Positions 13,739 to 37,946 of a stretch of DNA of 37,946 nucleotides are shown here, one piece after another. Numbering within the stretch: the first letter of the stretch is position 1; every line of letters begins with the position of its first letter. Made by a program: the position numbers and the translations under genes. Source of the DNA: Gracilaria domingensis (Eukaryota; Rhodophyta; Florideophyceae; Gracilariales; Gracilariaceae); contig VCMS01000382.1 in NCBI GenBank assembly GCA_022539475.1, positions 77,500-115,445 on the forward strand, in the 5' to 3' direction. Below the pieces are notes generated by a model. It saw nothing but the letters and a program-made list of their open reading frames with translations. It ran no database searches and had not been told where the DNA came from.

Positions 13739-13764
13739 TGCGGTATTCGACGTTACACTTTGCT

Positions 13765-14076: not shown

Positions 14077-14096
14077 TTCCTGCTTTCAACTTACCG

Positions 14097-14626
14097 AAAA
14101 TTTGGTTTAACAAATGTGGACTTAATCTTCCGAGACTTTTCTTCTTTACTAACCCCTTCATATTCTCGCCAATGTAGATTTTCTCTTCCAAAACTCGTTT
14201 TCTTTACTAAATTTTTCATATTCTGGCCACTCTCTCTAATCTTATACTATTCGAATTTGGCCTTATATCTTGCTATATACAGTTTCTTTGTTTTCATAGT
14301 GTTCAAAAAATTGGCTGTAGTAATAGTTCGCAGACTTCTACGCGTCTGAACTTCCCCTATCTATTAACTTTTCTTCATTGTTCTTAGTCATGAATACGCG
14401 CTCGAAGCGTTACACATGCCATAAACTTTATGAACAATTTCTTCTTTTGATATCCCTTCTTCTACCAATTATTACTTTATGCACACCTTTGTAATCATTC
14501 AACTTTCTAAAACTTCGTATTCAACGTTCCCATACTTATAAATATGTCTCCAGCACCATTTATGCCCCTATATCCACTTTCTTTCTTTCTATTCTTAGCT
14601 ACTAACAGAACTACGTTAGATCTACG
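14097..14626. other. Pyrimidine-rich intergenic or 5' leader
   Basis: The plus strand is strongly T/C-rich (TTCTTTACTAA, CTTTCTTTCTATTCTTAG) right up to the next gene. The last CTATTCTTAG resembles a 3' splice site about 30 bases before the ATG at 14627, so an upstream exon is possible but none can be identified. Confidence 0.4.
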
Positions 14627-17892: not shown

Positions 17893-18285
17893 TTATTCGA
17901 GGCGTCTTGAACCTTCTCGGCGCAACATGAGCTCCCTAATCCTTTGCTTGATGGCAGCGATATCGAGTCTTGTGGGATTCTGACCTGGACCCAAATAACG
18001 AGGACGGGGTAAGCCAATGTTGTCCAAACTATTGTATCCAGTGACACTGTTTGATTCAGAAGCGTTATCGTCTGCATGGGGTACTTCTCCAGTAAGATCT
18101 GTAGCTTGGCGATTTCCAGGGCGACAATATCGTTCCGTCGTAGAACTTCGGGGATTTCCATCGCCACAAGATCGACGAGATCGGCGAGATCGGTTTCCGG
18201 CTTTTTCCTTTCCTTGTTTGCTGCGGAGAAGAGATTTCTTCGTCGCTAAAACGGTTCGAGGTCGTAAGCGCATCGAGTGAGCCAT
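17893..18285 (-). CDS. Small basic hypothetical protein, about 130 aa
   Basis: Reading from the ATG at 18285, the protein starts MAHSMRLRPRTVLATKKSLL and is very basic over its first 55 residues (GNRSRRSRRSCGDG). It has a polar middle and ends with a likely helix (IAAIKQRIRELMLRREGSRR). The frame is open upstream to 18705, but that part reads like random sequence. The Arg/Lys content suits nucleic-acid or nucleolar binding, which is inference. No family is recognised. Strong overlapping ORFs in other frames lower the confidence. Confidence 0.4.
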   Translation of the reverse strand: MAHSMRLRPRTVLATKKSLLRSKQGKEKAGNRSRRSRRSCGDGNPRSSTTERYCRPGNRQATDLTGEVPHADDNASESNSVTGYNSLDNIGLPRPRYLGPGQNPTRLDIAAIKQRIRELMLRREGSRRLE

Positions 18286-20627: not shown

Positions 20628-20866
20628 CCATTTCGTGTTTGGGCATTTGTGTCCTGCGACCCCCTCCTAAAATAAGTAAATTTAAAGGGGCGCAGCCACT
20701 CTTGCCCGAAAAACGAAATGGGTTTTGGCCATGTCCGGCGACATGAGCACCAGCGCCCCGTGAGAGGCACCGGCACCCAGTGATAGGCACCGCGCGCCGT
20801 CAAAAGGGCTCTCGCATGAGAGCCCTCGCATGAGAGCCCTCTTGGCGGCGCGCGATGCCCATCACT
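20628..20866 (+). mobile_element. Foldback (MITE-like) element, copy C
   Basis: This copy carries the same two adjacent hairpin modules as the copies at 22795 and 24310. The first runs from CCATTTCGTGTTTGGGC to GCCCGAAAAACGAAATGG. The second is a GC-rich hairpin with arms at 20786-20803 and 20842-20859. It differs by a duplicated TCGCATGAGAGCCC inside the second loop and by a few base changes in the arms. No coding capacity. Confidence 0.8.
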
Positions 20867-21150
20867 TGTTGTAGTAAGGAAACAGGACGACTGCAACGTC
20901 AGCTTGGTACAGGCGGTGCAAGACGTTGTCTTGAAGCTTGGTGCAGCACAACCAGTTGCAGTAGCTCCTCTGTGCGTTCCAAACGGACTGTTTTCAGAGT
21001 ATTGAGAACGAGCAGGCAGAATACAAAGGTTTTTATCTGATGTGTTATGTAGAAGCTGAAAGCTAGAGATAGATAAGTAGTAGCTCGACCGAAAGTAAAC
21101 AGTAATCGAGCTACGAGCTTGACACCCTTGTGAGACTTCCCAGATTCTCC

Positions 21151-22557
21151 TAACAGGTTTTGCGAAATGTTCCGCGGTCCAGGAGGTCCTCAGTCAGATA
21201 CGAAGATGGCAAGAGTGAGATCCTTGACCTCAATAAGGAGAGTTGGCGCATTCGTGCAGACAATTCCCATCATGCTAATGCGATCGAATTGTCGCCAGGG
21301 CAAGAACTGCAGAGCATAGAGAAGGAAACTTTGCAGGAGTTCTTTCAAGTTCTTGGATCTAAAAAATTCTTGTTACATCAGTCTCACGGGTTGCCTCCGT
21401 TCCTATCTCACAACGCCTATCAAAAGAAGGAAGAAATCCTTATGGAGACAGTAGATAAGGTTTCTGTTGATGCTGTGCCAACGGACGCGAATGTCATTTC
21501 CAGCCACGTATTCTACAAAATTAAGAGATGTGATGACGGCTCGCTGTTGTTGAAGGCACGAATTGCCCCACATGGTAACGAAGATAACCAGAAGACAAAC
21601 CTGAAAACAGACTCTGCGACTTGGCCGCCCTTAAGAATTCGCATTTTGCTAGCAATGACGACAATACGTATCTGGACGTTGGTAAAGATTGAACTTTCCA
21701 AACGGGAGACATTGCTACTGTCGCTGTGAAGATTACGGATGATCCTGTGCTTGCTGGACCCCGTAGCGACGTGAAGGCAGGTATTGACAGAATTAGGCAG
21801 TCGTATAAGCTGAGAACAATCGTTTTCGGTCTTCGAGCATTCAAGTACTTTGGCTTGGACGTCGTTCAGTTCGAAGATCACTCGAGTATGATACATGGGG
21901 ACGAGAAGCTGATTTAGAGGCTTATCCGCTCGACCGCAAGGGCAGAAAGGAACGAGAAGAATTTTTGAATGCAGTAGAAGCGTCCGCGTTTCGTTCTCTC
22001 AATAGTTCGATTGGCTCGTTAGCGACGGCAGCTTCACCCTTTTGCGCTTTTGCTGCTAGGTTTTTGCAGCAGAAACGCCCGCGTCCAAGAGTAAAGGACA
22101 TGGTGACACAGATCAATGTACTGAAGAAACTCAAGAAGCTTGGTTCTACCGTGCAATATGTGCGACATACAGATGGCAAAAGGTATGAGGTCTCAGTACT
22201 GGTCCTTGCAGATGCAAGTAGACAGAAAAACTACGGAAAGTTAGGCTGGATTGCTGGAATTCATTTTGGGAGTTTGAGAAGGACTCTGTTTTCTATGGGC
22301 TGTCTTGGTCGTCTCGAAAGTCTAAACGTCCAGTGAAGTCTATCTGATCAGCTAAAATATTGGCACCTGGAGAGACCATCGACGAAGGAAAAGTGGTGGC
22401 AACGGCCTTGACTACGTTGCTTGGCATCAAAGTGGGCCTTATAGTTGTTGTGGATTCGAAATATCTTTTTACGACGTTGTCAACTTGCAGTAATAGTCTC
22501 GAGAGGTCGAGATCCGAGCTGATGTCAGCGTCATCATATTTGAGTTCGAACTACTGA
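21151..22557 (+). pseudogene. Ty1/copia pol remnant (RT and RNase H), multiply broken
   Basis: Frame segments in order match copia-type pol. DAVPTDANVISSHVFYKIK and LLKARIAPHGNED (about 21466-21582) are the RT entry. KITDDPVLAGPRSDV and TIVFGLRAFKYFGLDVVQ (about 21726-21868) are the palm to thumb. SLNSSIGSLATAASPFCAFA, YVRHTDGKRYEVSVLVLADA and VVATALTTLLGIKVGLIVVVDS (about 21998-22470) are the connection and RNase H. Breaks lie near 21690-21730, at the stop 21915-21917, near 21965 and at 22334-22370. The section with the RT YxDD box is missing or destroyed. No integrase or gag remains in the window. The remnant ends at a TGA at 22556-22558, inside the left arm of a large inverted repeat. Confidence 0.85.
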
Positions 22558-22677
22558 GACTAGGAGGTCTTGTACTCTACGCTGCCTTGCACGGTTATGT
22601 TTTAGCATGAGTGGTACTCATGCTGGAGAATGATCGTGCGAGGCAGCGTAGAGTACAAGACCTCCTAGTCTCAGTAG
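22551..22677. repeat. 127-nt near-perfect inverted repeat
   Basis: Arms 22551-22593 and 22635-22677 (43 nt each) are reverse complements with one mismatch. The left arm starts CTACTGAGACTAGGAGGTCT. A second, inner stem AGCATGAG/CTCATGCT (22604-22611 and 22617-22624) encloses a five-base loop, so the whole segment can fold into one long hairpin. The left arm overlaps the last codons of the copia remnant. Confidence 0.93.
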
Positions 22678-22794
22678 TGCTACACGATAGACGTACGCCT
22701 ACACCCTCATCACCCCCCCCCCCCACCCCCCTCCACCCCAGAGTAAACGACTGATCAGCCATCTCATCCAGTTCCTTTGTTGTGGGAGGTGGAC

Positions 22795-23209
22795 ACCTTG
22801 TGCCCTCCCGGGGGGGCGCAACCCATTTCGTGTTTGGGCATTTGTGTCCTGCGACCCCCTCCTAAAATAAGTAAATTTAAAGGGGCGCAGCCACTCTTGC
22901 CCGAAAAACGAAATGGGTTTTGGCCATGTCCGGCGACATGAGCACCGGCGCCCCGTGAGAGGCACCAGCACCCAGTGATAGGCACCGCGCGCCGCCAAAG
23001 GGGCGCTCGCATGAGAGCCCTCTTGGCGGCGCGCGGTGCCCATCACTGCTGCCTCGTCCGCACGCGCGCATCGCCGCACCGCCGCACCGCCGCACCGCCG
23101 CGCGATCTGCGAGCCTTCAACTCAGCTCACCGCCGTGCGCTTGATCAGCGCCACGTGCAGGGCTTCCACCGTCGAGACCATCGCCATCTCGCGCGCGCAC
23201 ACACACTCG
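22795..23209 (+). mobile_element. Foldback (MITE-like) element, copy A
   Basis: A 415-bp unit nearly identical to the one at 24310-24724. Module 1 is a foldback at 22820-22919 with arms AACCCATTTCGTGTTTGGGC and GCCCGAAAAACGAAATGGGT. Further in, CTGCGACCCC pairs with GGGGCGCAG. Module 2 has perfect 18-bp arms at 22981-22998 and 23023-23040. The rest is GC-rich with GCCGCACC repeats (about 23070-23100). There is no transposase, so it would be non-autonomous. Confidence 0.85.
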
Positions 23210-24309
23210 GACTACACTAGAGTTGGATAACGGTGAAAGGTTACGGACTGGTTCTTGCACCTGGTTTCGCCGATGATATGAGGATCGGGTGGAAAGAACG
23301 TCGCTTGTGGTTTCTTGAGTAGCCAATGTGGTACATGCGGATCGCTTTGTCGGTGTGTCCCTCTGCCGAGGGTCTCCAGAGGATGAATGAAGAGAGTAGT
23401 GGGAGGAAGAAGGCGATAAGCGTCGGTAGCCAAACTCCCACGATCGGAAACACTTAAGATATCTAATATTTCTCGCCGTAGTCCAGTAAGTGTACTACGA
23501 CCACTTCGTTGTGGTCAGTGGCTGCTATGTAGAGGTATTATAGGTCGTTGGGTCTTGAGCAAACCCCTGCGTAGGAGCAGAGTTAGCCCCATCTTTTCCA
23601 TATATCGCCAGGGGCGTATTGGTGACTTCTTGTAGTCAGGGGCCAAAAGTCAAGAAGTCGGGCGAATTTGGCTGTAGTCGCCCCTGTGGTAGTCAGTGGT
23701 AGTCATCAGGCAAGCATTGGCCTAGCACATGAATTGTTTAGTTTGTATAAGTAACTCACTGCTCTAAAATCTTGTTTGCGACTTTAATAACAGTCCTACG
23801 AAACGCTGATGCCTTTGCATGCAGCAAAGAGCTTCGAGGCCGGCAGGGTGATTGTACCTCAGAATGTACAAAATACCTTATAATCTCCGTCATTTCTAAA
23901 GCTCCAGACAATAGAGACTGCCTTTGATGGCCTTCAACGCGACCTTAGGTCGCACAAACTGGTCTGATGGACTCTACCGGGAGCTCTAGACAGCTTGACT
24001 ACTTTCATGACTACAGTTCACATCTAAGAAGTCACGGAGTCATAGTCATGTCAAAAATGGCCGTAGTCAGCCAGTCATCGATTCGGGCCTGTATATCGCA
24101 CACACATCTTAGAGATCTCGAGCTCTGTTCTAACAACTATCAGCTGCTCAACATGCGTAACGCGGCTACATACCCGTACTCTGCAGCTGCATTTTTACAA
24201 AAGCTTTATACGTTGTACGGGGTTCTTAGCAATCCACCCAGCAGCCCCTCCGCCCTCCACCAGCATAAAGCTGGTGAGGCGAGGACTGTTGCGTGTGAAG
24301 GTCTCCCGA
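23210..24309. other. Intergenic DNA between the two foldback copies
   Basis: No gene is supported. The ORFs present are short and overlap on opposite strands. Several GTAGTCAG/GTAGTCAGTGG-like words recur at 23460-23710 and around 24060, which may be a worn repeat. Confidence 0.5.
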
Positions 24310-24724
24310 ACCTTGTGCCCTCCCGGGGGGGCGCAACCCATTTCGTGTTTGGGCATTTGTGTCCTGCGACCCCCTCCTAAAATAAGTAAATTTAAAGGGG
24401 CGCAGCCACTCTTGCCCGAAAAACGAAATGGGTTTTGGCCATGTCCGGCGACATGAGCACCGGCGCCCCGTGAGAGGCACCAGCACCCAGTGATAGGCAC
24501 CGCGCGCCGCCAAAGGGGCGCTCGCATGAGAGCCCTCTTGGCGGCGCGCGGTGCCCATCACTGCTGCCTCGTCCGCACGCGCGCATCGCCGCACCGCCGC
24601 ACCGCCGCACCGCCGCGCGATCTGCGAGCCTTCAACTCAGCTCACCGCCGTGCGCTTGATCAGAGCCACGCGCAGGGCTTCCACCGTCGAGACCATCGCC
24701 ACCTCGCGCGCGCACACACACTCG
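24310..24724 (+). mobile_element. Foldback (MITE-like) element, copy B
   Basis: This matches copy A over 415 bp with only a few changes (for example CAGAGCCACGCGC against CAGCGCCACGTGC), so the pair is young. Second-module arms lie at 24496-24513 and 24538-24555. To its right the GC-rich sequence continues into a different, protein-like segment. Confidence 0.85.
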
Positions 24725-25200
24725 CGCGCGCACAAACCACGAACGTCACGCATCGCCGCACGCGGTCTGTGGCGCGATCGGGCAGTTTTCTACACGGCTC
24801 ACTGGCGCGCTTGGTGAGCGCCATGCCACCTCCTCTATCTTCGCGTCCATCTCCACCTCGTCCGCGCGCATGCACCGGCACGCGATGCGCCAATCTTCTT
24901 CGCGGATCACCAACCCGAGCCCATCGTCCACGCCTTCCGTTTGCACCATAACCGCGCGCACCGTCTTGGCCATCTCGTCTTCCTCGGACTCCAGGACATA
25001 GTAGGAGTGCTCCTGGAGGCGTTACAGGAAATGCCCCACACCAAAGCTTGGCTCAAGCACCGACAAGCATAAGCTGCGCCCGACGCGGTCTTGGTCAACG
25101 AGGCGAATGGCACCTGCTCACTCATCAACTTTAACCCGAGCACGTCCACCTTTCCGTGGCTCTTCAGCTGGGCCTTTCCTTGCGTTACGTCGCCGCTGAT
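24725..25200 (-). pseudogene. GC-rich fragment resembling a broken coding exon
   Basis: The minus strand reads protein-like in two frames. One carries SEQVPFASLTKTASGAAYAC (about 25110-25050). The other carries MAKTVRAVMVQTEGVDDGLG followed by LVIREEDWRIACRCMRADEV (about 24973-24855). The frame changes near 25030. Base composition is far more GC-rich than the flanks. It could be a captured host-gene fragment; the family is not recognised. Confidence 0.3.
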
Positions 25201-25676
25201 GCTAACTGAGGATGGTCTTCCTTCCTTTCTTAAGTATTAACCAGCATTGCACCCATAACGACATCCTATTTCCCTCGTTGTGCCCTCCTAGAACTAAATA
25301 GACATTAGAGCTTATGAAAAAAATAAAGGTGACCTTTACCTCTTCCTGATAAAACTGGCATACCTTTTTCTACGAGAGTCAAGAGCTCTTTTCATACATA
25401 CGAGGTTATACTTACGACATTTACGTTTCGGGTAAGGGCAGGCGACAAATGCTCTATCGTATCCATTGCTTTTATCTTGCAAGTCTTTACGGGTGCAAAG
25501 TCGTTCGTTAGTCTTTGTTCATTAGAAGGTTTGAGTTTGAGTTTGAACCCATGTCCTTTCAAACCATTTAAATAGTGAGCTAGTGGGCTGATGTAAATCA
25601 CGAAAGACTTAATTTTTATTCACATTATTCTGCTCTAAACGGTTTCGTAGGTGTTGCTTGTACATCAGCGTTAGTA
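25201..25676. promoter_or_regulatory. Upstream region of the ParB-like gene
   Basis: AT-rich sequence about 475 bases long precedes the ATG at 25677. It contains the 13-bp palindrome AAAGGTGACCTTT (25325-25337). No TATA box or other standard promoter element can be placed with confidence. Confidence 0.3.
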
Positions 25677-27605
25677 ATGTATCGTGAATACGCCCGTTCG
25701 AATCCAGTGTATCTCATTCAAATGGGTACGACAGCCATGGAGCGCTCCGAGAGCACAAGCCGAGCTAGCGTCCATGATCAAAATCAGCAACCCAAGCAGA
25801 CTAGCAGAATGGGCATCAACACGAGAAGGGTTAAGCGACCAAGCGATGCTGAGCAAAGTAGCGAACGTGGAAGCGCTCTGAACCCCACCGGAGGGGAGCC
25901 GCGTCAAACCCAGCTCCCTCCCGCCGATGAGGATGAGATTCTTCCGGCCCCTACCCAACCAAGACGCGGCGGAAGTTCCTCTAGTGTGATCGGAAGAGAT
26001 ACATCCGGGAGAAATATTGCTGCTACCGGGAATAGGCCCAGGGTGGTGAGAACTGGGTTTCGAAGTGTTCCATTTAATACACCAAGGGATCCATCTTCAG
26101 CACCCGTTCAGAGTGAAGAACAGGGCCGCAATATAGGTTCCGGAACTCCATTTGGAAGAGCGGGACGTGCTGCTGGGAGAGCGGCTGGGGCCTTTAAGAA
26201 TTTTCTTGTGACTCGCTTGTCCAGTTCGACCTCAGAAGACCGGGCGTTACAGCCAACTGGTAGTGATGATGCAGCATTGCAAGAAGAGCTTGGTGCGGCT
26301 GCAGCTGGGGGTCCTTTACGTGGAGATGAGAGTTTGGAAGAAAGTAGACTGGCCGTCGTTATGAACACTGCAGCAGCGTCTGTTGGAAGTCCGCAGAGAA
26401 GCGGAGCACCACGGTTGGTGATAGGAAGTTCTGCAACAATGCCTGTGGGCTCCGTTGGAACGCAACCTCAGGCACAGGCAACACTTTCCGCTGCATCTGG
26501 GAGCCAAGCCTTTCCACCGTCCACCACACAAGGTGTGGAGGTTTCCGAGGAAGCTAATGAAGTTGGAGGTGAAGAAGATATGGATGATGACGTCCTAGAA
26601 GTCTTGGATGATGAAGAACTGGTATCCAAAGAAGTAATTACTGCTGCCGCGGATAGTCTTGGGATCCGAAAATTCAAGGATGGTGAACTGAAAACCATGT
26701 TCGCTACCATTGACATCCTCTCTCTTGTTGTAGAGCCGCCATCAACTCTTCGGGGTCTCAGTGAGGAGCATATTTCGCGCCTGATCACTAGCTTTAAAGC
26801 ACAGGGTGTACAGGAAGCCTTGGGTTTTCTCACTGTCACGTTTTCTCCCGAAATTGATGGTTCACTGCCGGCAAATCGAATGAATGGAAATACAATTACT
26901 TGTCGTTGTTGGCTGATTGACGGCAGGCATCGTTTTGTAGCTCTCAAGAGATTAGCCGCAGAATCAGAGGAATGGAAGAATGCTTTGCGTAACTTCCGCG
27001 TTTCTCTGAAGTACCTCGAGAATGATAGGCCACTGACGTTGCTTGACGTACTGGGTATCGGAGGTCAGATGAATCGAGGGTCTGAATCTGTTTTGGCAAT
27101 GTCTACTATGGACTATCTACATGCATGCGTATCACACCTTAGCATAATTGAAGCATCTGGACGCATAACACTGGATGAAATAACCCCAACGCCGCTTGCA
27201 GGAGTTCTTATCAGCACAGGAGCTCTAGGAAAAATGAAGGGGCGTCAGATTATGAGATACGCTACCATCGCCATACCCATGGCTAAGCATTCGGAGGTAT
27301 CTCGAATGGTGGTTAACGCGTTCGAGGAATGTCCCTTGCTGGGAGTCATGCATTTATCCAGCGCAAGGATTTGGGCCATGCCTTTCGAAGGTATCAGATT
27401 GGCTATCAAATGTATTATTAGGCGCCTAGAAGCGTCGCGAAGAGGAGTTGCACGATTGAATCTCGGAGGGTTCGAGACTATGAGAGCTTCCTTCTATGAC
27501 AGCGTGAAAATGTTATATTCACAAGTTGAAAGAACCGCGAAACGTCACAAGTTGAGTACGGCCAACTTGTTAGCAAGGAATCTATCTTCATTAGCTCGAA
27601 AGTGA
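25677..27605 (+). CDS. ParB/Srx-like domain protein, first part of a probable multi-part gene
   Basis: The start is ATG 25677. Residues 1-300 are low-complexity and probably disordered (Ser/Arg/Gly-rich, then an acidic run GGEEDMDDDVLEVLDDEELV). From about 345 to 435 the sequence follows the ParB-N/Srx pattern: LSEEHISRLITSFKAQGVQE, a beta strand FLTVTF, then the signature CWLIDGRHRFVALKRL with IDGRHR at 414-419. This fold binds or cleaves DNA, or binds nucleotides, in bacterial ParB, nucleases and sulfiredoxin. The last 200 residues are helical and unassigned (TMDYLHACVSHLS). The stop TGA (27603-27605) overlaps the next open frame, which is shifted by -1 and open from 27530. A 44-nt GT-AG interval at 27551-27594 would join the two frames, so one spliced gene is likely. 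The domain call is by motif only. Confidence 0.72.
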   Translation: MYREYARSNPVYLIQMGTTAMERSESTSRASVHDQNQQPKQTSRMGINTRRVKRPSDAEQSSERGSALNPTGGEPRQTQLPPADEDEILPAPTQPRRGGSSSSVIGRDTSGRNIAATGNRPRVVRTGFRSVPFNTPRDPSSAPVQSEEQGRNIGSGTPFGRAGRAAGRAAGAFKNFLVTRLSSSTSEDRALQPTGSDDAALQEELGAAAAGGPLRGDESLEESRLAVVMNTAAASVGSPQRSGAPRLVIGSSATMPVGSVGTQPQAQATLSAASGSQAFPPSTTQGVEVSEEANEVGGEEDMDDDVLEVLDDEELVSKEVITAAADSLGIRKFKDGELKTMFATIDILSLVVEPPSTLRGLSEEHISRLITSFKAQGVQEALGFLTVTFSPEIDGSLPANRMNGNTITCRCWLIDGRHRFVALKRLAAESEEWKNALRNFRVSLKYLENDRPLTLLDVLGIGGQMNRGSESVLAMSTMDYLHACVSHLSIIEASGRITLDEITPTPLAGVLISTGALGKMKGRQIMRYATIAIPMAKHSEVSRMVVNAFEECPLLGVMHLSSARIWAMPFEGIRLAIKCIIRRLEASRRGVARLNLGGFETMRASFYDSVKMLYSQVERTAKRHKLSTANLLARNLSSLARK

Positions 27606-29320
27606 AGCGGTTGGACGAAAGCATCGCTAACCAGCTTCAAGATTTTACAGTGTTCATGAAGGCCAAGCGAAACGAGGATAAAAACCGTGCTCGGCTGAGA
27701 ACGCTCAGAAGGCGGCTGAGGGATCTCGTTGGGGATGACTTGGGTGACAGTCTGGCAGAGGAAGAAAACGTGGTTGAAGGGGCACTTGCAGTAGAATCAG
27801 CAGATGCGGGTGGTACAGCTTCAGGTGCAGCTACAAATGAACCTGTGGCAGTAGGTGTATCTGCAGCACTAAGATCACAAGCATCGGGAATTGAGGCGCT
27901 AAGCGTAGGAGTAGGCGGTGGTGCACAAAACAGTGCAACTACATTACGCCGCAGCGCTCGTAATCTCCTGGTACAAGCAGCAACTGCCGCAGCTGACGAT
28001 GGTGACGATGATGATGATGTTATAATGGTACCTGTAAAAGGGCGTGGCTCAAAGAAACGAAAGAAAGCTGGAAAGAAGAAGAAGAGATCAGCTCGGAAGC
28101 GGCGCAAAGTGGGCGCTAGTGATTCCGAAGAAAGTCTAGCGATAGACTCTGAACGAAACCTGGGCAAGGCTGCTATCGTTAAGAGTTTCAAGACCATGGA
28201 TGACAATCTGCGTGAAGACCTTATGGACACGTTGGAAGACATTCAGTACAGCGTTGATGTTTTGGATGATACGGCAGATGAACAGGGCGGCAGCCGGCGA
28301 AAGACACGGAAACATGGGATCCAGAGAAAAGGACCCCAGGCTGATGCGGCAGACAGATTTGAAAGCGCTGGAGAGCGCAAATTTGATGATGAAGTTCCCG
28401 AAAAGCTTCCAATAGGTGTGACAGAAGAGGACTCCTCACACGTCGGTAAACGGTTTCCGCCTTGGACAAAGTTTGTCACGAAGGTTCCGAGTTCTAAAGG
28501 ATGGCAGATTTCGCAAGGAAATGATCAGAAGAAGAACCCCATTGAACACAAGGAACCTTGGCTGCGTGCTCTTTTCATACCTCCGAAACATCGCGCAAGT
28601 TGCGTCGGTCTAGTTACCCTTGACGACTTGCGCGCCACGCACCATGCTGTGTACTGGCACGCCGCTTATGAATACTATCGCGAGAATGGAATAGAAGATG
28701 TCGACTTGCTTCCAGAGGAGATGAATAATACCACAGTGGATAAGCAGCTCTGGATCTCTGCGGTAGCAGAAGACGATGTTGGAAATAGTTACTTCGCTAG
28801 GCAGCGAACGAATCTGTCTCAGAGAGGATACTGCATCATGGAAGGGTTCCTCAACGATGAAATTATTCCTGACGCGATTCGTGGTCTGCCGCTTTGCAAG
28901 CTGAAGGGGGCAGACAGCTTCTTTTCGGCGTTGGAAATGGAAATGGTGAAAAGCTATCCTGGAGAGGAAGCCTTGCGAAATCCTGACGACTGGCTCGAAT
29001 GGATGCGAATTATTAACGAAGGTACTGATAAAGATACAACTCTGGGTACGCTGGAAGGGATTGGGCGCTATATCAAGACCTTGTTCGGAATGACCACAGC
29101 CTTGGAACAGGACAAAAATCGAGTTTGGACTGTTAGGGAAAGAGCATTGGTAGACTGTCGTCTTGGACAAGTGATGGCGTGTTTAGGGGTCGGAAATAAC
29201 CGAAAGGCGGGGCCGAAGAAGAGCGAATGGCGCTGTTGGAAGAACAACAGAGGTCTGAAACTAATGAGGAAGAAGGGCAGGGGCAAGCTACACAGCAGCA
29301 GCACTCTACGCAGAACATAG
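27602..29320 (+). CDS. Nuclear protein with NLS and N-terminal half of a PhyH-like domain, middle part
   Basis: This frame is open from 27530; the GTG at 27602 is only a nominal start, so it is better read as the continuation of the preceding ORF. After a helical, acidic stretch comes a dense Lys/Arg block at about residues 149-172 (GSKKRKKAGKKKKRSARKRR), a strong nuclear signal or DNA-binding tail. Residues 260-390 form a globular unknown region (RFPPWTKFVTKV; DDLRATHHAVYWHAAYEYYR). From about 409 the sequence reads QRGYCIMEGFLNDEIIPDA, the typical start of a phytanoyl-dioxygenase-like fold, whose iron site lies in the next ORF. The final 40 residues (GPKKSEWRCWKNN on) look like out-of-frame translation beyond the true junction. 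Confidence 0.68.
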   Translation: MKRLDESIANQLQDFTVFMKAKRNEDKNRARLRTLRRRLRDLVGDDLGDSLAEEENVVEGALAVESADAGGTASGAATNEPVAVGVSAALRSQASGIEALSVGVGGGAQNSATTLRRSARNLLVQAATAAADDGDDDDDVIMVPVKGRGSKKRKKAGKKKKRSARKRRKVGASDSEESLAIDSERNLGKAAIVKSFKTMDDNLREDLMDTLEDIQYSVDVLDDTADEQGGSRRKTRKHGIQRKGPQADAADRFESAGERKFDDEVPEKLPIGVTEEDSSHVGKRFPPWTKFVTKVPSSKGWQISQGNDQKKNPIEHKEPWLRALFIPPKHRASCVGLVTLDDLRATHHAVYWHAAYEYYRENGIEDVDLLPEEMNNTTVDKQLWISAVAEDDVGNSYFARQRTNLSQRGYCIMEGFLNDEIIPDAIRGLPLCKLKGADSFFSALEMEMVKSYPGEEALRNPDDWLEWMRIINEGTDKDTTLGTLEGIGRYIKTLFGMTTALEQDKNRVWTVRERALVDCRLGQVMACLGVGNNRKAGPKKSEWRCWKNNRGLKLMRKKGRGKLHSSSTLRRT

Positions 29321-30063
29321 ATGCTGTGCTAAGTCTAGCAATGGGTAATAGAACGAAGTCTATGTATATGCCGAAAACCGGCGGTCGGTGGTTGTACACG
29401 TCTAAAGGATGTGGACGTCAAGTGCTGCACACGGATTTTGGACCACTCGGTCGTGAAGAGACAATGAACGGGATAGGTAATCCTGGTTATTTTGTCATCT
29501 GCACCGGTGAAAACGGGGCTGGGTTGTGGGTTTGCGACGGATCTCACAGACTGATTGCTATTACGGACCCTAGAAAGCTGCGGGCATTGTCACGAGTTAC
29601 CAAGGTTGGCCTTGTAGAAATACCACCGAAATCAATCTTCGTTGGAAGAGGGGATGTGTTTCATGCCGGTAGTGGATCAGAAGACTTCCCAATTTCTGGG
29701 GGATGTATACGATACCACACTTACTTTATTCCGGAAGGTTATTCACTACCCGATGCCGTTCATCTAAACCATAGATTCCAACCAAAGATTTATCGGAAGA
29801 ACATCAATTTGGAAACTGAATCAGAGTTGGGAGAAGAGGTTGTCCAAGGAGAAGCGTATGAGTTGGATGATGACATGGAACTGGATGAAACAGTAGCTGT
29901 GGAACAACAACAACAACAACAACAACAGGTCGATGATAGATTGAATGCTGGTGAGGACGGTGCTGATACAGCTGGGCAGCAAAATGTGGTAGCAATGGAA
30001 GAAGAAAATGTTGTAGAAAACGATGATCCCGGTGCAACTGGTGGTGATGATCAGGCACCCTAG
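29227..30063 (+). CDS. 2-oxoglutarate/Fe(II) dioxygenase (PhyH-like) catalytic part
   Basis: The frame is open from 29200 and overlaps the previous ORF in the -1 frame. A GT-AG interval 29171-29223 (53 nt) is one way to join them. The iron ligands are visible as HTD (His68, Asp70 in VLHTDFG) and His146 (GRGDVFHAGSG). Arg162 in GGCIRYHTYFIPEG fits the 2-oxoglutarate-binding Arg. WVCDGSHRLI matches the PGSH-like turn of the PhyH family. Such enzymes hydroxylate or demethylate small molecules, proteins or nucleic acids; the substrate is unknown. The next-door DNA methyltransferase and the NLS make a DNA or chromatin substrate worth considering (inference). The tail is acidic with a run of eight Gln. 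ATG 29227 may or may not be used. Confidence 0.78.
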   Translation: MALLEEQQRSETNEEEGQGQATQQQHSTQNIDAVLSLAMGNRTKSMYMPKTGGRWLYTSKGCGRQVLHTDFGPLGREETMNGIGNPGYFVICTGENGAGLWVCDGSHRLIAITDPRKLRALSRVTKVGLVEIPPKSIFVGRGDVFHAGSGSEDFPISGGCIRYHTYFIPEGYSLPDAVHLNHRFQPKIYRKNINLETESELGEEVVQGEAYELDDDMELDETVAVEQQQQQQQQVDDRLNAGEDGADTAGQQNVVAMEEENVVENDDPGATGGDDQAP

Positions 30064-31243
30064 ATACATCTCAAGTAAAATTTAGGCTTGTCGGGCTGTC
30101 TTTTCAACTTTCCGAACATGTGGAGTACTTCGCACAAGCGACGTCATCTTTGCAGTTGACGTCGGTCTATCAGAAACTCAAAACTCATCGTGGTTTTCAG
30201 CTGAATACCTAGGATATTGGCTACAGTTGAGCATTACCTTTTGAGGTGCACAACGAGAACCTTTTCTCGACCCTTTTCTTGTCTGTTCTAAGTGATCGAC
30301 AGGATCTAGCTGTTAGTACGTTCATTACAAAATGTTTTGAAAAGGTTTTGGCCTTTCTCATGAAAGAACGCTTCATTCAATAGGAAACGTTCTACGGCTT
30401 GCCGTAATTAGGCTGTTAAACCCATAAAGGGAGAGAAAGGCTGCATGGCTACCAGGTCCATGTTCTTTGACAGGCTCGGCCTATGATATATTTAAAACAA
30501 TGATGCGGGTTTTAACTCTGATCTGGCACAAACAGAGAAATAAAACGTGTCCAGTTCAAGCCCCATACATGAGAGATATTTACATAGCCCTCCCTCTCAC
30601 AGTCTCCGGAACCAGCCTTTGACCATGTCGGCAACATAAGCACCGACGCCCACGGGTGCGTACCTCCCCTAACACGGGGATGGTCGAGACCCATTTCGTG
30701 TTTCGCCATTTATGACCGTTGACCCCTTCAAAAAAATTACTGAATTTGAAAGGACGCGGCCGCTCTTGCCCGAAACACGAAATGGGTTTTGGCCATGTCC
30801 GGCGACATGAGCTTCAATCCCTGACTCTGAAAATGTGCTCCACGAGTGGTAATATCTATATGTTTGAACTCTTCTTGAAGCGTGAACATGATATGCGAGT
30901 CATTTCGTACAAAGTGTATTTATTGAAAGTTCTAGAGCTTTTCATTGTATTGAGACAATCTATTAAACGTCCACTACTTTGGACTACAACCGGTTAATTC
31001 AAGATGCATATTTGTCTTCGAGCGCGGATCCGTTTCCCACGACCATCCGTTTTTGAACTTCAAAAGATTCAAATCTCCTTCTTCTGTTTTTGTTTCATGT
31101 ACGCAGGCGACTGACGTCTTCCAGGACTAGCGATTGCAGTCTGTGCCTCTCAACCTTTCCTCTACTCGTGGTGGCCCACAATTCCTGCTCTTCCAATTGT
31201 TTCTGGCACATCCATTGCTCCGAAACGAAACCTATTTCTCAGC
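30064..31243. other. Intergenic DNA with a diverged foldback element
   Basis: About 1.2 kb separates the dioxygenase and methyltransferase genes. It contains the old foldback copy at 30621-30813. No gene is supported. A pyrimidine-rich stretch precedes the ATG at 31244. Confidence 0.6.
30621..30813 (+). mobile_element. Foldback element, diverged copy D
   Basis: The arms CCCATTTCGTGTTTCGCC (from 30690) and GCCCGAAACACGAAATGGG (ending 30786) match the other copies, with a changed interior. Here the word CCATGTCSGGCRACATRAGC occurs on both sides (30622 and 30793), whereas in the other copies it is only on the right. The GC-rich second module is missing. It sits between the two putative modification genes. 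Confidence 0.75.
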
Positions 31244-34200
31244 ATGCAGCGCCGGCAGCCAAAGATGTCGAAGATGGCCCAAGCTGTTGCCCTGATTATT
31301 GCCTGCCGGGATGAATGGCACCGACAAAATCCTGAAGAAACTGTTCGGAACAAGTTGTTCGGTTCGTTCAAGAAATGGCTCGTGTCCTTGGAAGAAACAA
31401 GAAGAAGTTCCTCCACAGTTACCCCAATGCCTTCGCCTGTTCGGCAATTATTTTCCCTTCTCTTCGGTGGAAACGATACAAACAACTACGCTCTCTCGTC
31501 GTTTAAAGCTAAGTTCAATAATCAGGCCATGGAGTTTTATCGTATTGCCTTTGCTGCAGATTTTCGTGACGGTGAAACAGATGAAAGGGTCCGTTCCTTA
31601 ATACTGTTTCTCTGCAACAAACCTGAGTTGCGCTTCGCATTCACCACACTGCTCACCCCCTTCTTCACTGCCTCTCCATTTAATCCTTCAAAACCTCCGA
31701 TTCGTGCCCAAAGAAGTGTGTTTCGCACCAATTACTCGACCAGATTCGAACAGATGCTTTATATCACAGCGTTGGCACATGCTCTCAACTCTCGCCCGTC
31801 TATTCCCAAACTAAGCACTGTGGGCAGAATGGAAGCACAGCGAATTGGGAAGGCCGTGCAAATTATCACTCGCGGGTGGGATGTCTTCTCCGCGTTTCTT
31901 GGTTTCAGGAGCATTGAAGATTTATCGTTCTCGTATCTGACAATTGATGCCTCGGAGTTGAAGTACAAGGTTGTCGAATCGCGAAACACCGGGTTTGTTC
32001 CCTCCTCACGAAAAAGCTCTCTCAATATCCCTCCTAAACTATCAAACAGCAAAGATGATATTGACACCATTCCTTTCGCTCTTAATGAAGAAACGGATAA
32101 ACACATTCGCACGTTCCTTCACGATTTTCTTTCGGATATTTACGGAAGCGTTGAACAAAGCAGCCTCTACACTGCACCGGAAGAAGAGCCTTATCCTCCT
32201 TTTGAGAATTTCAAGCCCCTTAATGTGCAAAACGAAGGACCCAGCGGCTCAAGTGAATCACCGTACTCTCAACTCGGGCGTCTCCCTAACCGGTTTCAAA
32301 ATCTCTCCGTGAACATGACTTTAACTATCAAAATGGCAGTATCTACAATTCAAGGAGGTGTGTCGCATCAAGTGCTTACTGGTGGCCAAGATGAGTTGCC
32401 TCTTAGACGTCGCCCTTCGGATTCAGATATATCTCTCCAGCCAAAACGGAAACGAAGGAAAGTTGTTCCTTCTAGAAGTCGTACTCTTCCAGCTTTAGAA
32501 GGTGAATCCTTGAATTCGACTGGCCTTGCACCACTTTTGGCTTCAAGTACGACGCCCGTCGACAGTGGGCTTCGACGTCGCTCCTTGGCCAGACTTCTGG
32601 AAACACGCAAGACTCCGGCTTTTGAAGGTAGTGGTCAAGCAACGCAATCTGGCAGTGATAGCTCTCTGCAAACCGCTGGAAATAAGGATGAGCTTTTGGA
32701 GGCCTTCAAGACTTTGGAGAGTGAAATGGAGAGCCAATGCGTTATCATGGACATAGAGTTCGAGAAGTTTTCAGAAGAATTGGAACTTTTGTTCGCTGAA
32801 GCTAAAGTTCTTGGCAACACTCAGTTCATCTGCATTGAACCGCCTTACAACAAGCTCAATGCTGATCATGAAAAGCTAAGCTACAAGCAAATGCGAAAAG
32901 TGGTACGGCTGATCGGAAGACTGCTCCGGCCAGGAGGTCACGCAATAATACTCTGCCCCTTTTCCGAGGCCAGTACATGGATCGAACTTTGTCAGACTTC
33001 TGGAAAGAATAGTGCAAATTCTGATGAAGATGAAAGCGATGATGACGAAGATGATGACGATGAAAGTGAGGAAAGTGATGATAGTGATGATTCTGCTTCG
33101 TCCTCAGAATCATCATCGCCTGAAGCTGATCAAAACGCAACTAACCCTGCGTTCACAGTCGATCCAACCCCAATCGTTCTCTCTTGGCATCCATCTTCTA
33201 ATAAGAATAATGCCTCACGACGGAGTAGTTCGCTGCTAGTCGACATGAACGAGTATGCCGTCCACCTCAAGAAAAACGGCCTTGCGCAGGAAGAGGAAGG
33301 CAGAATGGTTAACACGCACAAAAACTTCAACTATGTGGGCTCTTCATTTCCCCCATGGAAAAATCAAGTCAACAACATCAAGGATATTGCTCCTCATGAG
33401 CAGGTGCGAGTGTTAGCTCAATCTTCAGGACAAGCAGTCAACCCAAACAAGAGAAAGACGAACTTGCTCCGTCCAGAACAGAAGCCTATCGCATTAATGC
33501 AAGAACTGATATCCCGATATACCCAGCCAGGTGACATTGTGGTGGACTTCTTCGGTGGAACGTTCTCAACAGCTATTGCACCCTTTAGCCTTCCCCAACA
33601 CCGAAGATTTTTTGGGTGCGAGAAGGACCGCTCTTGTTATGCAGCAGCAAGGATAAATCTTCTCCTGGCTTTTGCAAGAACGATTGTCTCGCGGACGAAC
33701 GACATTCAACCATCTCCTGCAATGTTTCAAGTGTGTTCCATGCTCGTCAAGGATATGCATTCTTTGAACCTTCGTAACGTTCCCCTTCCTGGAAATATTT
33801 CAATCCGCAACACGAAGACATCCGGTTCGTTCGCGAAGGGTAAGAAGTGGAGGCCTCCTTCTGATTATCCTCCCTACCAGGCTTTTCCAGCTCATATCCT
33901 TACTTCGCTGGGTTCTTTATGGAACGATGTGTCCTTCATTAAGACCTCAACGGGCACCGCCTTCCAAGCGTGGCCCAGACCATACCAAGGTCTCCTGCAG
34001 CAAGTGGATATACCAAATTTGCTTGTCATCGACGGTGCCGCTAACAATTTGTTTACCGCGAAAAGCACTATTAAGCATCCGTTCGCAGGAAATGGTGTCT
34101 TTGCAAGCAAGTCTTTTTCCAAAGGTGAACGGGTTTGTTCTTACTATGGAACTATTGTGTATCACAATCTCAATGCTCGCCATAACTCACCCGCTTCATC

Positions 34201-34627
34201 CGCTTCCTCTTGCAATCATGTATATGGCGAAGGTGTTCTTGGTGTTTCCTGCAGTCGTTTTGCCGAATACGCAATTCAGATCGACTGCAGAGATCCGGGA
34301 TTCTCGCAAACGACGGAAATGGACAGCGGAATGAAGGCTGTATACATCGTTCCTTACAAATTTTGCATTGGTGCATACATCAACCATTTTGATTACGACC
34401 ATCTCGATGAAGAGTATCAAGCTTCAAAGAATGATGAGCATTTCAAAAGGGTACATCTTCGTAAGCCAAACGTTGAGTTCAGGCTACTGAATGAACGAGT
34501 CATTCACCCGCAGAGCCTAATCAATCCTTCTCTTGTTACAGTGGTTGCATCCCAAACTATTAACCCTGGCGATGAACTGTTTGCCAACTATGACAAGCAT
34601 GATTTTGTGACTAGTACATCCAAATAA
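31244..34627 (+). CDS. DNA amino-methyltransferase (beta class) fused to a SET domain, 1127 aa
   Basis: The start is ATG 31244, open to TAA. Residues 1-500 are unassigned, with a helical first 300 and a basic patch (QPKRKRRKVVPSR, near 400). Methyltransferase motif IV is IEPPYNKL (EPPYN at 532-536), followed by LLRPGGHAIILCPFSE. An acidic Asp/Glu/Ser insert fills about 592-630. Then come a motif X-like segment (LRPEQKPIALMQELISRY) and motif I IVVDFFGGTFSTAIA (Asp768), followed by RRFFGCEKD. The order IV-X-I is that of beta-class N6A/N4C enzymes (N6_N4_Mtase). Glu replaces the usual D/N/S before PPY, and Phe replaces one Gly of motif I, so activity is not certain. At 940-1120 a SET domain shows GNGVFASKSFSKGE (GxG at 949-951), AYINH (Asn1047-His1048, followed by F, not S) and ELFANYDKHD (Tyr1116). 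SET domains methylate lysines, commonly in histones. Nuclear location is inferred. Confidence 0.85.
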   Translation: MQRRQPKMSKMAQAVALIIACRDEWHRQNPEETVRNKLFGSFKKWLVSLEETRRSSSTVTPMPSPVRQLFSLLFGGNDTNNYALSSFKAKFNNQAMEFYRIAFAADFRDGETDERVRSLILFLCNKPELRFAFTTLLTPFFTASPFNPSKPPIRAQRSVFRTNYSTRFEQMLYITALAHALNSRPSIPKLSTVGRMEAQRIGKAVQIITRGWDVFSAFLGFRSIEDLSFSYLTIDASELKYKVVESRNTGFVPSSRKSSLNIPPKLSNSKDDIDTIPFALNEETDKHIRTFLHDFLSDIYGSVEQSSLYTAPEEEPYPPFENFKPLNVQNEGPSGSSESPYSQLGRLPNRFQNLSVNMTLTIKMAVSTIQGGVSHQVLTGGQDELPLRRRPSDSDISLQPKRKRRKVVPSRSRTLPALEGESLNSTGLAPLLASSTTPVDSGLRRRSLARLLETRKTPAFEGSGQATQSGSDSSLQTAGNKDELLEAFKTLESEMESQCVIMDIEFEKFSEELELLFAEAKVLGNTQFICIEPPYNKLNADHEKLSYKQMRKVVRLIGRLLRPGGHAIILCPFSEASTWIELCQTSGKNSANSDEDESDDDEDDDDESEESDDSDDSASSSESSSPEADQNATNPAFTVDPTPIVLSWHPSSNKNNASRRSSSLLVDMNEYAVHLKKNGLAQEEEGRMVNTHKNFNYVGSSFPPWKNQVNNIKDIAPHEQVRVLAQSSGQAVNPNKRKTNLLRPEQKPIALMQELISRYTQPGDIVVDFFGGTFSTAIAPFSLPQHRRFFGCEKDRSCYAAARINLLLAFARTIVSRTNDIQPSPAMFQVCSMLVKDMHSLNLRNVPLPGNISIRNTKTSGSFAKGKKWRPPSDYPPYQAFPAHILTSLGSLWNDVSFIKTSTGTAFQAWPRPYQGLLQQVDIPNLLVIDGAANNLFTAKSTIKHPFAGNGVFASKSFSKGERVCSYYGTIVYHNLNARHNSPASSASSCNHVYGEGVLGVSCSRFAEYAIQIDCRDPGFSQTTEMDSGMKAVYIVPYKFCIGAYINHFDYDHLDEEYQASKNDEHFKRVHLRKPNVEFRLLNERVIHPQSLINPSLVTVVASQTINPGDELFANYDKHDFVTSTSK

Positions 34628-35725
34628 ATGATGGCTACCATTCTATTCTACTTACATAATATCTAAAGGATAGAGTTCACTCGCTACCAAAGTTGTGATG
34701 CGAACCCATCAAAACTGGCGCGTAGAAATGATTATACGTTTTGCAGAGAAGAACCTAACGTAGTCCAATTACTTCTTCCAGTACGATCATTCGAATACAT
34801 GTACGCATTGTTAGCATTCTCGACATCAAAATCGAACGACTACGTCGGGGGTCCTAGACGATTTGATTGATTTAATTCACGGGAAGTACTCAAGCAATTG
34901 GTGCATATCTTGCTACATGGATACATTCTTGACATGAAAATTGTATGTATCATAGATTCACAATGAATCTATGCTCGGCGCTGTGGCGGTTTGGCTCGGC
35001 GATGTCTTTCGGTGTACTGTCGTACATGAAGTCACTTTGAAATTGAGTCTACGGCGCTGTGGCGGGCTGGCGAAGGGATCCCCTAGCTCGCCGCCAGACA
35101 CGCCGCGGCAGCCCCTAAAAGTGAAGTAGACTCTATGTCAACGCGAGGATCCCCTAGCTCGCCGCCAGACACGCCGCGGCAGCCCCTAAAAGTGAAGTAG
35201 ACTCTATGTCAACGCGAGTTCATGTATACCGAACGACATCGACGGATGTGCTGATTTGCGGCGAAGCCAGTAGAATGCCATAGAAAGATGTCTTGAGTCG
35301 CGGCTGCGGCGGAGGTGCTGGGGTGTCGTAGAAAGATGTGCTGAGTTGCGGCGAAGGCGTGGGATGGGATGCTATATCGAGGATTACGTAGGATCTAAAG
35401 CCTGTGCACACCCTGACTGAGTTTCAGAAGTTTACAAGTGTAGAGTAGCATTTCGGACTAATATAAAACCTGGAACTATCGTCTAGGACACATGAATTAT
35501 ACACGTGTAAAAGAACGGCGTTCTTCGCCACGCAAATCTTACATATACCACGTGCTTGAAATCCGGTACTCTTCAGCCGATTCCATCTCTATAACAAGGG
35601 GCAATCTCTCCAACTTTTCTTTACTTCCTTGTCTTTGTATACCATTCCTCTCCTTCATTTTCGTTACAACGCTCTGAATATCCGTCCTTCTATTGTCTCG
35701 CTTCGGCTTGATTGTCCGCAACGAA
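34628..35725. other. Intergenic DNA with short tandem repeats
   Basis: No gene is supported. It holds the 71-bp tandem duplication at 35076-35217, recurring GGCGCTGTGGCGG words (about 34978 and 35054), and a roughly 57-bp imperfect repeat with ATAGAAAGATGT / GTAGAAAGATGT (about 35280 and 35337). Confidence 0.6.
35076..35217. repeat. 71-bp direct tandem duplication
   Basis: The unit GGATCCCCTAGCTCGCCGCC and onward occurs at 35076-35146 and 35147-35217 and reads as identical. It lies between the methyltransferase-SET gene and the next gene. Confidence 0.93.
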
Positions 35726-37525
35726 ATGCTTTGCCAGCTACGAGATGTTCGCGGGACGAATACACGGGTTCGACTCGGCTTTCTTCTCCAATATGACGAT
35801 AAGATTCGCACGACCTCTGAACTCACCTACCCGTGTTGCGCATCATTTTCTTTGAACATGAAAAGAGTACTGCGCGGTGAGAGCTTTCCGTCAATGATAT
35901 TCATCTCGTTTGGCGAGTCTGGTACTCTTACTTTCTTTACTGGATACGTTAAGAAAACCGTTCTGGGTTTACGATTCATCTCAAGATTAACCGCATCGGA
36001 TACCGAAATCTTCGAAATGGAATTTTCGGGCCTAGAGGACAGCAACAAACAAATCTTGGATGAAGCTCTTAAGACGAAACCAGAATATCTACCGACTTTG
36101 GTACCGAAAACCGGGAAGTTTGAGCTTCAAATGGCATCGAGAGCCATTACGGAAGGCAATGTAAGCCCAGGAAACTCCTGCGCTAAGTATTGGTGTTCTT
36201 GCTTGGTGTTAAGCCGCATCATTTGTACTATGCAGCACGTTGCGGTGCTTTCTCACAAGGAAGATGATATGAGCAATTACGTTCCGGATTCTTTCGAAGT
36301 TGGTGTCGATTGTGGCCGCAGTAAGGGAATCGACTATTGGTGGATGTGGTACCCAAGCCCCAAACCATACTCACTTCGCTCATGGTTAGAGTACTTGAAA
36401 CATGGAGAGGACTATGATTCCAGTTCTGTTGTTGAACATAGTCCTCTTCTTGAAGGCTTCTATCGTTTCCGAATCACTAAGTTTTTCAAGGACCGATCGC
36501 ACAAAATGGTTTCTATTCGCTTCGATGATGAGAGAAACTCGGAAGTAGATGCGTATCTAGATGAATTTGTGCGGACCGCAATGAAGAACAAAACGTTTTA
36601 CTTCTCTAACGAGAATGAAAATCGAACCAAACTCGTACTCTCACTTCCGATATGTCTATCGCTTCCGGAAGATCACACAATCGGTTTTCAAAAATTGGGA
36701 TTCGGTGGTCTAAGCCAGATGATTTCTGCCTTTTTACTTCCTCCTTGTAAGAAGAGTAATGTCACATTTGAAAACGTCGCTAGCGGCTACTATGGCCCAG
36801 TGCGCTCTGGGGCGATACAAAAGTCCATAACTGGGGAGAAGACGAAGACTGAGAAACTAAAAGTACCGAACTGGGCTTCGAATGTACTCTCCTACATTGA
36901 CAATGACTCCTTTGAGAATCTAGCATCGCTGGCAGACATGGATATTGTGGAAGATTTTAAGATTCCAGGATTCCCGTGCTTGGCTCCCGACGAAGAAGAT
37001 CAGTCTGTGCAGGAAGGGGTAGACCGCTCTCCGACAGGTGATGATAAAATCGTGAGCGGTGACGAAGGCAAGAAAAAAGCAACGGCCTCCGGAGAAGAAA
37101 CTCGTGTTGCACACAAAGATTCTGGAAGCAAAAGTCAAACCCCTGAGCCTGAACCTATCATCTGTGATCCTCAGGTTGCAGAATCCAAACCATTCTCTCG
37201 TGATTCTACGGCAGATGGAACCGCAAAACCTCCTCGCCTTCGATCCGTTAGATTTGACCTCAAGGAGAATAAATCTTCTGGGAGACCTTCAAAACAAGTG
37301 AGTGAGGATCATGCTGGTAAGGTGAAACAAGGCAGTGGCACAAAAGGGCGTGAGGATATGAAAGGTTCGGAGAAGAATAAAAAAGCTGAAGGCGGTATGG
37401 AAGTGGCAAACGTGGACGGGGATGAAGATTCGGAGGTTGCTTTTGATGCGTTTAATGAAGAAAGCACTAATAAGCTGAAGGAAAACATACGTAATTTGAA
37501 GCGTAACAAAAACAAATCGAAGTAA
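35726..37525 (+). CDS. Unknown protein with globular N-terminus and charged disordered tail, about 599 aa
   Basis: The frame is open from 35678. The first ATG is at 35726 (LRDVRGTNTRVRLGFLLQYD follows). An upstream exon is possible because the region before it is pyrimidine-rich. Residues 1-420 look globular with alternating strands and helices (VRLGFLLQYDD; FEVGVDCGRSKGIDYWWMWY; GFYRFRITKFFKD; TKLVLSLPICLSLPED). From about 430 the protein turns into an acidic and Lys-rich disordered tail ending in NLKRNKNKSK. No family is recognised. The tail style resembles those of the preceding ORFs, which suggests a nuclear protein in the same gene group (inference). Its stop is 14 bases from the stop of the convergent gene on the right. 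Confidence 0.72.
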   Translation: MLCQLRDVRGTNTRVRLGFLLQYDDKIRTTSELTYPCCASFSLNMKRVLRGESFPSMIFISFGESGTLTFFTGYVKKTVLGLRFISRLTASDTEIFEMEFSGLEDSNKQILDEALKTKPEYLPTLVPKTGKFELQMASRAITEGNVSPGNSCAKYWCSCLVLSRIICTMQHVAVLSHKEDDMSNYVPDSFEVGVDCGRSKGIDYWWMWYPSPKPYSLRSWLEYLKHGEDYDSSSVVEHSPLLEGFYRFRITKFFKDRSHKMVSIRFDDERNSEVDAYLDEFVRTAMKNKTFYFSNENENRTKLVLSLPICLSLPEDHTIGFQKLGFGGLSQMISAFLLPPCKKSNVTFENVASGYYGPVRSGAIQKSITGEKTKTEKLKVPNWASNVLSYIDNDSFENLASLADMDIVEDFKIPGFPCLAPDEEDQSVQEGVDRSPTGDDKIVSGDEGKKKATASGEETRVAHKDSGSKSQTPEPEPIICDPQVAESKPFSRDSTADGTAKPPRLRSVRFDLKENKSSGRPSKQVSEDHAGKVKQGSGTKGREDMKGSEKNKKAEGGMEVANVDGDEDSEVAFDAFNEESTNKLKENIRNLKRNKNKSK

Positions 37526-37539
37526 AGAAACACGGTGCT

Positions 37540-37946
37540 CTACTTCTTCACTTTTTTCCCCTTGTCATTAATGTTTTTTGTTGGGGCTGAACGCTTTCGG
37601 TCGGCACCGGGCACCATCTTCAACGCAAATGTAAGATCCACCATTTCCTTTATGTTTGCCGATGAATCTTGCTTTAGCTTGTTCACAATGGTATTCGGCA
37701 GCTTCCTCTTCCCAGGATCACTATCTTTTTCAAACTTTTTGATCTCGTCTCCAGAGATCTTTGAGCGTATCGGTCCGTAAATTCCGTTCGGAATAAGGTC
37801 GGATGGAAAAATGACCAGATCCACCAAAGATTGGAGTCCTGAAGAACCCCAAGCATTTACCCCTTTGCATCCTTTATCATTCTCGAAGCGGATATGAAGC
37901 GGGATTGCGTGAGTTATTCTAGCTCTCTTGTGCCACTTTTCGTTAA
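37540..37946 (-). CDS. Partial unknown protein, 5' end beyond the window
   Basis: The minus frame is open from the right edge to the stop at 37540, about 134 codons. The visible part contains AIPLHIRFENDKGCKGVNAW, then VDLVIFPSDLIPNGIYGPIR, a Lys-rich helix region, and a basic tail (KGKKVKK). The in-frame TTG at 37827 is not a believable start because good coding sequence continues upstream of it. It faces the 599-codon gene tail to tail. No family is recognised. Confidence 0.6.
   Translation of the reverse strand, partial: NEKWHKRARITHAIPLHIRFENDKGCKGVNAWGSSGLQSLVDLVIFPSDLIPNGIYGPIRSKISGDEIKKFEKDSDPGKRKLPNTIVNKLKQDSSANIKEMVDLTFALKMVPGADRKRSAPTKNINDKGKKVKK

Follow-up and report, generated by a model that had tools for sequence, protein, structure and literature searches.

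Precedents exist for the separate parts of the system described here, in the portions of the reports available to us: SET genes on mobile elements (PMC12730594; PMC4067079), DNA-modifying oxygenases on Plavaka transposons (PMC12730594), and the fusion of an amino-methyltransferase with a chromatin domain (PMC8885841). In the fungal case, the TET/JBP dioxygenases carried by transposons have been argued to allow escape from methylation-based silencing (PMC12730594, in the part available). The stretch analysed here, referred to as the window, is 37,946 bases long and comprises bases 77500-115445 of contig C382 in the 77.9 Mb assembly of Gracilaria domingensis. One open reading frame (ORF) in this window encodes two folds, that of an N6-adenine/N4-cytosine DNA methyltransferase and that of a SET domain. 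It belongs to a multi-copy family, other copies of which recurrently lie beside a Plavaka transposase gene (mostly convergent) and a gene for a second multi-domain protein, the companion (mostly divergent). An earlier reading of the DNA letters alone (the original prediction) had proposed the fusion of the two domains; the repetition of the gene, and the transposase and second protein beside many copies, were not foreseen by it.

A methyltransferase fold and a SET fold in one reading frame

The fusion ORF (31244-34627, plus strand) starts with ATG and runs for 1127 codons with no internal stop, as had been predicted, in a frame that is already open from 31115. In a Pfam-A search, which the original prediction had proposed as a check, both domains scored above the curated cut-offs: N6_N4_Mtase (PF01555) at E 2.8e-16 and 60.6 bits, against a cut-off of 26.7 bits, and SET (PF00856) at E 5.2e-7 and 30.5 bits, against 22.4 bits, over residues 949-1116. 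Methyltransferase models of NCBIfam matched far below their own cut-offs. The motifs lie at exactly the residues first given for them (E532-P-P-Y-N536, D768-F-F-G-G-T773, G949-N-G951, N1047-H1048 and Y1116), and motif IV precedes motif I, which is the order of beta-class amino-methyltransferases, the class originally proposed. Fold comparison assigned the methyltransferase part to the fold of the N6-adenine/N4-cytosine class, and the SET fold was matched as well.

A homologue search with residues 480-1127 as the query, in which the 7985 best candidates were scored, returned 11 proteins, namely P0009, the product deposited for the same locus, and ten others from the jgi, lgn and ena sources, with 28-38% identity over 91-100% of the query. 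The sole return of an alignment search of the protein database was the product deposited for the window locus. PF01555 is above its cut-off in all ten relatives and PF00856 in eight. When the window protein is aligned with these relatives, P533, P534, G772, T773, G949, G951, N1047 and E1111 are identical in all 11 rows, and Tyr1116 is kept in 10, with Phe in P0004. The first residue of motif IV is E in the window protein and D in every relative, where the fourth place is Y, F, W or, in P0012, L (the class pattern being [DNS]PP[YFW]). At the SET 'NH' pair, the window protein has N-H, eight relatives have N-D, and one each has N-C and N-S.

A chance or misread ORF is ruled out by the Pfam matches, the homologues and the conserved motifs. 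Prokaryotic contamination is also ruled out, as no relative was found among GTDB genome contigs and the contig carries reverse transcriptase and integrase ORFs. The proposal of a bacterial-type DNA writer joined to a histone-type writer thus holds to the extent that both domains are real, lie in one polypeptide and form a recurrent fusion; methylation of DNA by the one and of histones by the other, with one mark following the other, is putative.

The gene model deposited for this locus, FGB62_382g04 (632 aa, P0009), departs from the frame at residue 619 (window 33101) and then stops, which leaves the deposited product without motif I and the SET domain. Because the relatives align across the point of divergence, the alignment favours the uninterrupted 1127-aa ORF over the deposited model. 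The divergence falls within an acidic stretch (residues 585-630) that is largely missing from the ten relatives. Within the N-terminal region, portions of residues 66-358 match other copies in the G. domingensis genome at 24-31%.

Copies of the fusion gene and their neighbours

The fusion recurs elsewhere in the G. domingensis genome and in other assemblies. By protein search, at least 41 loci were scored in G. domingensis from 832 first-look candidates; three lie on C382 at 99-100% identity, and 38 show 34-37% across the methyltransferase-SET part, many of these divergent copies having open frames of more than 1000 codons and some having stops. A tree of 19 rows (the window protein, eight other G. 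domingensis copies and ten other proteins) falls into two sets. The window copy shares its set with all but one of the ten other proteins, and P0012 joins the eight other copies in the second; the branch of the window protein is long and its exact placement unsure. Since the tree splits the fusion proteins in this way, the fusion is old and not a one-off made in contig C382. In 18 of 19 rows, R-x-x-N-V lies 20-odd residues beyond N-[HDCS].

Contig C382 contains direct and inverted duplications (window 10885-37946; C382 88384-115445), the blocks of which are 10.8-18.7 kb long and 99.4-99.8% identical; they may be an assembly artefact or, alternatively, real structure. Of the three fusion genes on C382, two do not differ at all, and the remaining one shows a single mismatch and three gap bases in 3384. 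As these copies lie inside the duplications, they were rejected as independent evidence and counted as one lineage, which is confined to one contig among the scored matches. Matches to the neighbouring genes are abundant and near-identical, with at least 67 scored places at 97-100% for the Plavaka query and at least 77 at 91-100% for the ParB-like query from the companion, and therefore point to a fairly recent spread of the repeat family.

Neighbours were counted around the 41 loci among the matches listed, so the counts are lower bounds. A Plavaka transposase lies within 12 kb of at least 16 of the 41 loci, against 1.7 expected (14 of 41 without the rows for C164 and C465, which were entered by hand). 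It is convergent at 14, where the distance is 4456-5038 bases at 13 loci and 0 at C164. The companion is near at least 16 of the 41 loci, against 1.6 expected, and is divergent at 13, with distances of 2899-4418 bases at 12 loci and 9171 at C22. At the three C382 loci, the companion is on the strand of the fusion and no Plavaka transposase was found.

The arrangement can be followed on three contigs. On C171, the order is a companion ORF (12753-16013, minus strand, 3' part missing), the methyltransferase-SET ORF (16953-20117, plus), an 832-codon ORF (20261-22756, plus) and the Plavaka transposase ORF (23037-26033, minus). Two blocks of C465 that overlap each other (8.7 kb at 98.4% and 7.7 kb at 97.4%) together match positions 13216-26806 of C171; they sit on either side of an inverted duplication, so that on C465 the unit is visible only in two opposite arms. 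On C164, a transposase (domain PF18759, E 3.6e-19) cut near residue 608, the fusion and the companion stand in line, and this copy looks like one with an internal deletion. Repeats lie between the divergent methyltransferase-SET and companion genes of C164 and make this region a candidate binding site; repeats were also seen near one side of the element, without reaching its true ends or target-site duplications. A haloacid-dehalogenase-like hydrolase ORF (L019 2125-3066; PF08282, E 6.1e-5, above the cut-off) lies in the C164 stretch that recurs at 33 scored places, and the repeat may therefore carry metabolic-looking cargo.

In the window, the companion (25677-30063) is broken up into three ORFs that overlap or abut. 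All three parts are found in a single ORF at C20 (1067 codons) and C61 (1043 codons) and in two ORFs at C253, and a 1500-codon open frame of the minus-strand companion on C382 spans both the ParB-like and the dioxygenase-like matches. A protein from the ena source, P0015, is 52% identical to the companion query part over 93%. The H-x-D ... H residues of the dioxygenase-like region are present in six of six companion copies, and HxD ... H ... R in the companion is what we take to be the motif of a 2-oxoglutarate-Fe(II) or TET/JBP dioxygenase. No Pfam ParB match was found for the companion, a PDB profile search with it likewise yielded no usable match, and its structure model was discarded at a mean predicted local distance difference test score (pLDDT) of 33.

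The positions of these features are collected in the table. Outside them, a 300-bp identical direct repeat occurs at 22795-23094 and 24310-24609, 1515 bp apart, and an 80-bp part of it recurs at 89% at 30733-30812, between the companion and fusion genes, perhaps as a short non-autonomous insertion. Beyond the 3' end of the fusion gene, a 71-bp unit occurs twice in tandem with no difference between the copies (35076-35217), and two genes without a convincing Pfam match then face each other (35693-37525, plus; 37540-37944, minus), the matching C382 stretches showing 24% identity. At 279-3915 lie retroelement ORFs, in which Pfam recognises a reverse transcriptase, an integrase zinc-binding domain and an integrase core.

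Table. Features of the fusion gene and the companion, in window coordinates
Feature	Position	Strand	Basis
Companion part 1, weakly ParB-like region	25677..27605	+	
Companion part 2, basic linker and N-terminal half of dioxygenase-like region	27602..29320	+	
Companion part 3, HTD ... H ... R dioxygenase-like motif	29227..30063	+	
Methyltransferase-SET fusion ORF, 1127 aa	31244..34627	+	open frame, Pfam, homologues, alignment
N-terminal region, residues 1-370, mostly helical	31244..32353	+	
Linker, residues 371-479, low-confidence, probably disordered	32354..32680	+	
Amino-methyltransferase domain, residues 495-822	32726..33709	+	Pfam, fold
Motif IV EPPYN, residues 532-536	32837..32851	+	
Acidic Asp/Glu/Ser stretch, residues 585-630, mostly unmodelled	32996..33133	+	
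EQK, residues 745-747	33476..33484	+	
Motif I DFFGGT, residues 768-773	33545..33562	+	
SET domain, residues 949-1116	34088..34591	+	Pfam, fold
SET N1047-H1048	34382..34387	+	alignment
SET Tyr1116	34589..34591	+	alignment

A proposed transposon-borne chromatin writer and alternative readings

The reading that we favour, and to which we give an even chance, is that the ORF encodes a two-headed chromatin writer from a transposon-associated gene family. In such a system, the methyltransferase head would mark the DNA of the element, with N6-methyladenine (6mA) likelier than N4-methylcytosine (4mC), and the SET head would methylate a lysine on nearby chromatin, possibly of a histone; being in one chain, the two could mark DNA and adjacent protein at the same place. 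The companion may bind the DNA of the element and oxidise the methyl mark, and the writer and companion together could place the element in a chromatin state of its own making, which protects it against silencing by the host or sets the time at which it moves. The transposon would benefit if the marks fend off host silencing or time its own expression. The window copy would represent one lineage of the family, which has kept its companion, has no transposase in view and is perhaps no longer mobile. We hold more tentatively, at somewhat below an even chance, the wider proposal of a eukaryotic DNA transposon with a two-protein chromatin kit, in which one protein writes DNA and lysine marks and the other binds the element and oxidises marks.

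Several observations weigh against this. The SET domain falls below the PF00856 cut-off in two of the ten relatives, P0004 (16.9 bits) and P0012 (18.2 bits), and the usual NHSC is missing from it. ParB-like PHROGs match the companion weakly (E 6.4e-4, 3.4e-3 and 0.062, each in one of six members), the Arg of the dioxygenase motif is missing in two of six copies, and the dioxygenase call is motif-only, with no usable PDB, Pfam or PHROG match for this part of the companion. Among the matches listed, both neighbours are present at 4 of the 41 loci only and neither at 13. On C382, of which 4% reads N, Plavaka was found neither with the C164 or C171 query (E <= 1e-3) nor among 123 profile places, and the genes of the window locus are all on the same strand, unlike those of other copies. 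In 33 scored places, repetition of the right-hand side of C164 extends as far as the queried stretch does, and the left side enters repeats, with no terminus fixed. Ratios of nonsynonymous to synonymous substitution (dN/dS) among the C164, C171 and C465 copies, at 0.32, 0.33 and 0.38, suggest constraint without proving it and rest on 13-47 differing codons.

Of the alternatives, the likeliest, though we consider it unlikely, is that the marks of the fusion keep its own element silent or control when it moves, cutting the cost to the host and not resisting silencing. Dam methylation gates some bacterial transposons. The same anatomy would serve such self-restraint, and regulation could plausibly act at the C164 repeats between the divergent genes. 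An amino-methyltransferase of bacterial type that carries a chromodomain reportedly contributes to transposon suppression in bdelloid rotifers (PMC8885841, in the part available). The many near-identical copies of transposase, companion and flank are, however, unlike strong restraint. Sequence alone does not separate restraint from resistance to silencing.

It is improbable that the gene is a passenger picked up by the repeat, with no role in it and with its domains as remnants. Gene pick-up by transposons is frequent, and some copies contain stops; many copies are nevertheless open, the core motifs of both heads are kept across distant relatives, the dN/dS values (0.32-0.38) lean towards constraint, and the neighbours and their distances recur. 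Slightly less probable again is that the window copy is a domesticated algal regulator, separate from the mobile copies. Its lineage is found on one contig only among the scored matches, no transposase was found on that contig, and in the tree it groups with all but one of the ten proteins from other assemblies and away from the eight further G. domingensis copies included; the split of the adjoining companion into three ORFs and the large duplications on C382 argue against a host gene.

An origin of the repeat from an endogenous large DNA virus is very improbable: SET proteins are present in viruses, algal and giant ones among them, as are amino-methyltransferases, and a BFVD fold search matched viral examples of each (its listing lacks model ranges and so does not distinguish joint from separate chains), but the IMG/VR scans gave one match each among the matches listed, to the methyltransferase part only and with no search aimed at viral marker genes, the 7 matches among phage records cover 5-7% of the query, and related copies adjoin a Plavaka transposase.

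If the two-protein chromatin kit is real, it would amount to an epigenetic system that is mobile and complete in itself, with DNA and histone marking coupled in one molecule, and one natural polypeptide with both writers would make this coupling directly testable in vitro. The fusion would bear on whether a single enzyme can couple DNA and histone marks and on whether 6mA or 4mC serves as chromatin information in eukaryotes. Should it serve the transposon, it would be a tool for counter-silencing or self-restraint of a kind not found in the literature searched, and red algae might owe a non-native DNA mark to it.

Comparison with described systems

The joined pair of DNA methyltransferase and SET writers was not found in the literature searched, in which coverage of likely surveys is incomplete, and the following comparisons are limited to the available portions of the cited reports. 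The N6-adenine methyltransferases CcrM, M1.HpyAVI and MboIIA share with the window protein the fold and the sequence around EQK and motif I, but are bacterial and lack SET, whereas the window domain lies inside a much larger protein. N4CMT of bdelloid rotifers is likewise a bacterial-type amino-methyltransferase of the same fold that is joined to a chromatin domain in a eukaryote; its partner, however, is a chromodomain, a reader, in place of SET, and it is described as captured from bacteria (PMC8885841). Among other mobile elements, HarbingerS and MuDR transposons and Helentrons have a gene for a SET methyltransferase, the joining of which to a DNA methyltransferase is not described in the text available (PMC12730594; PMC4067079). 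Some genes of the giant Plavaka-flanked repeats of Amoebidium have database matches in red algae; tyrosine recombinases are described for these repeats, and no methyltransferase-SET protein is described in the part of the report available (PMC11244446). The fungal Plavaka and other DNA transposons with TET/JBP dioxygenases are alike in their transposase family and in carrying a DNA-modification enzyme of their own, whereas in G. domingensis, a red-algal host, that enzyme is an amino-methyltransferase fused to SET, accompanied by a second protein without a dioxygenase profile match (PMC12730594).
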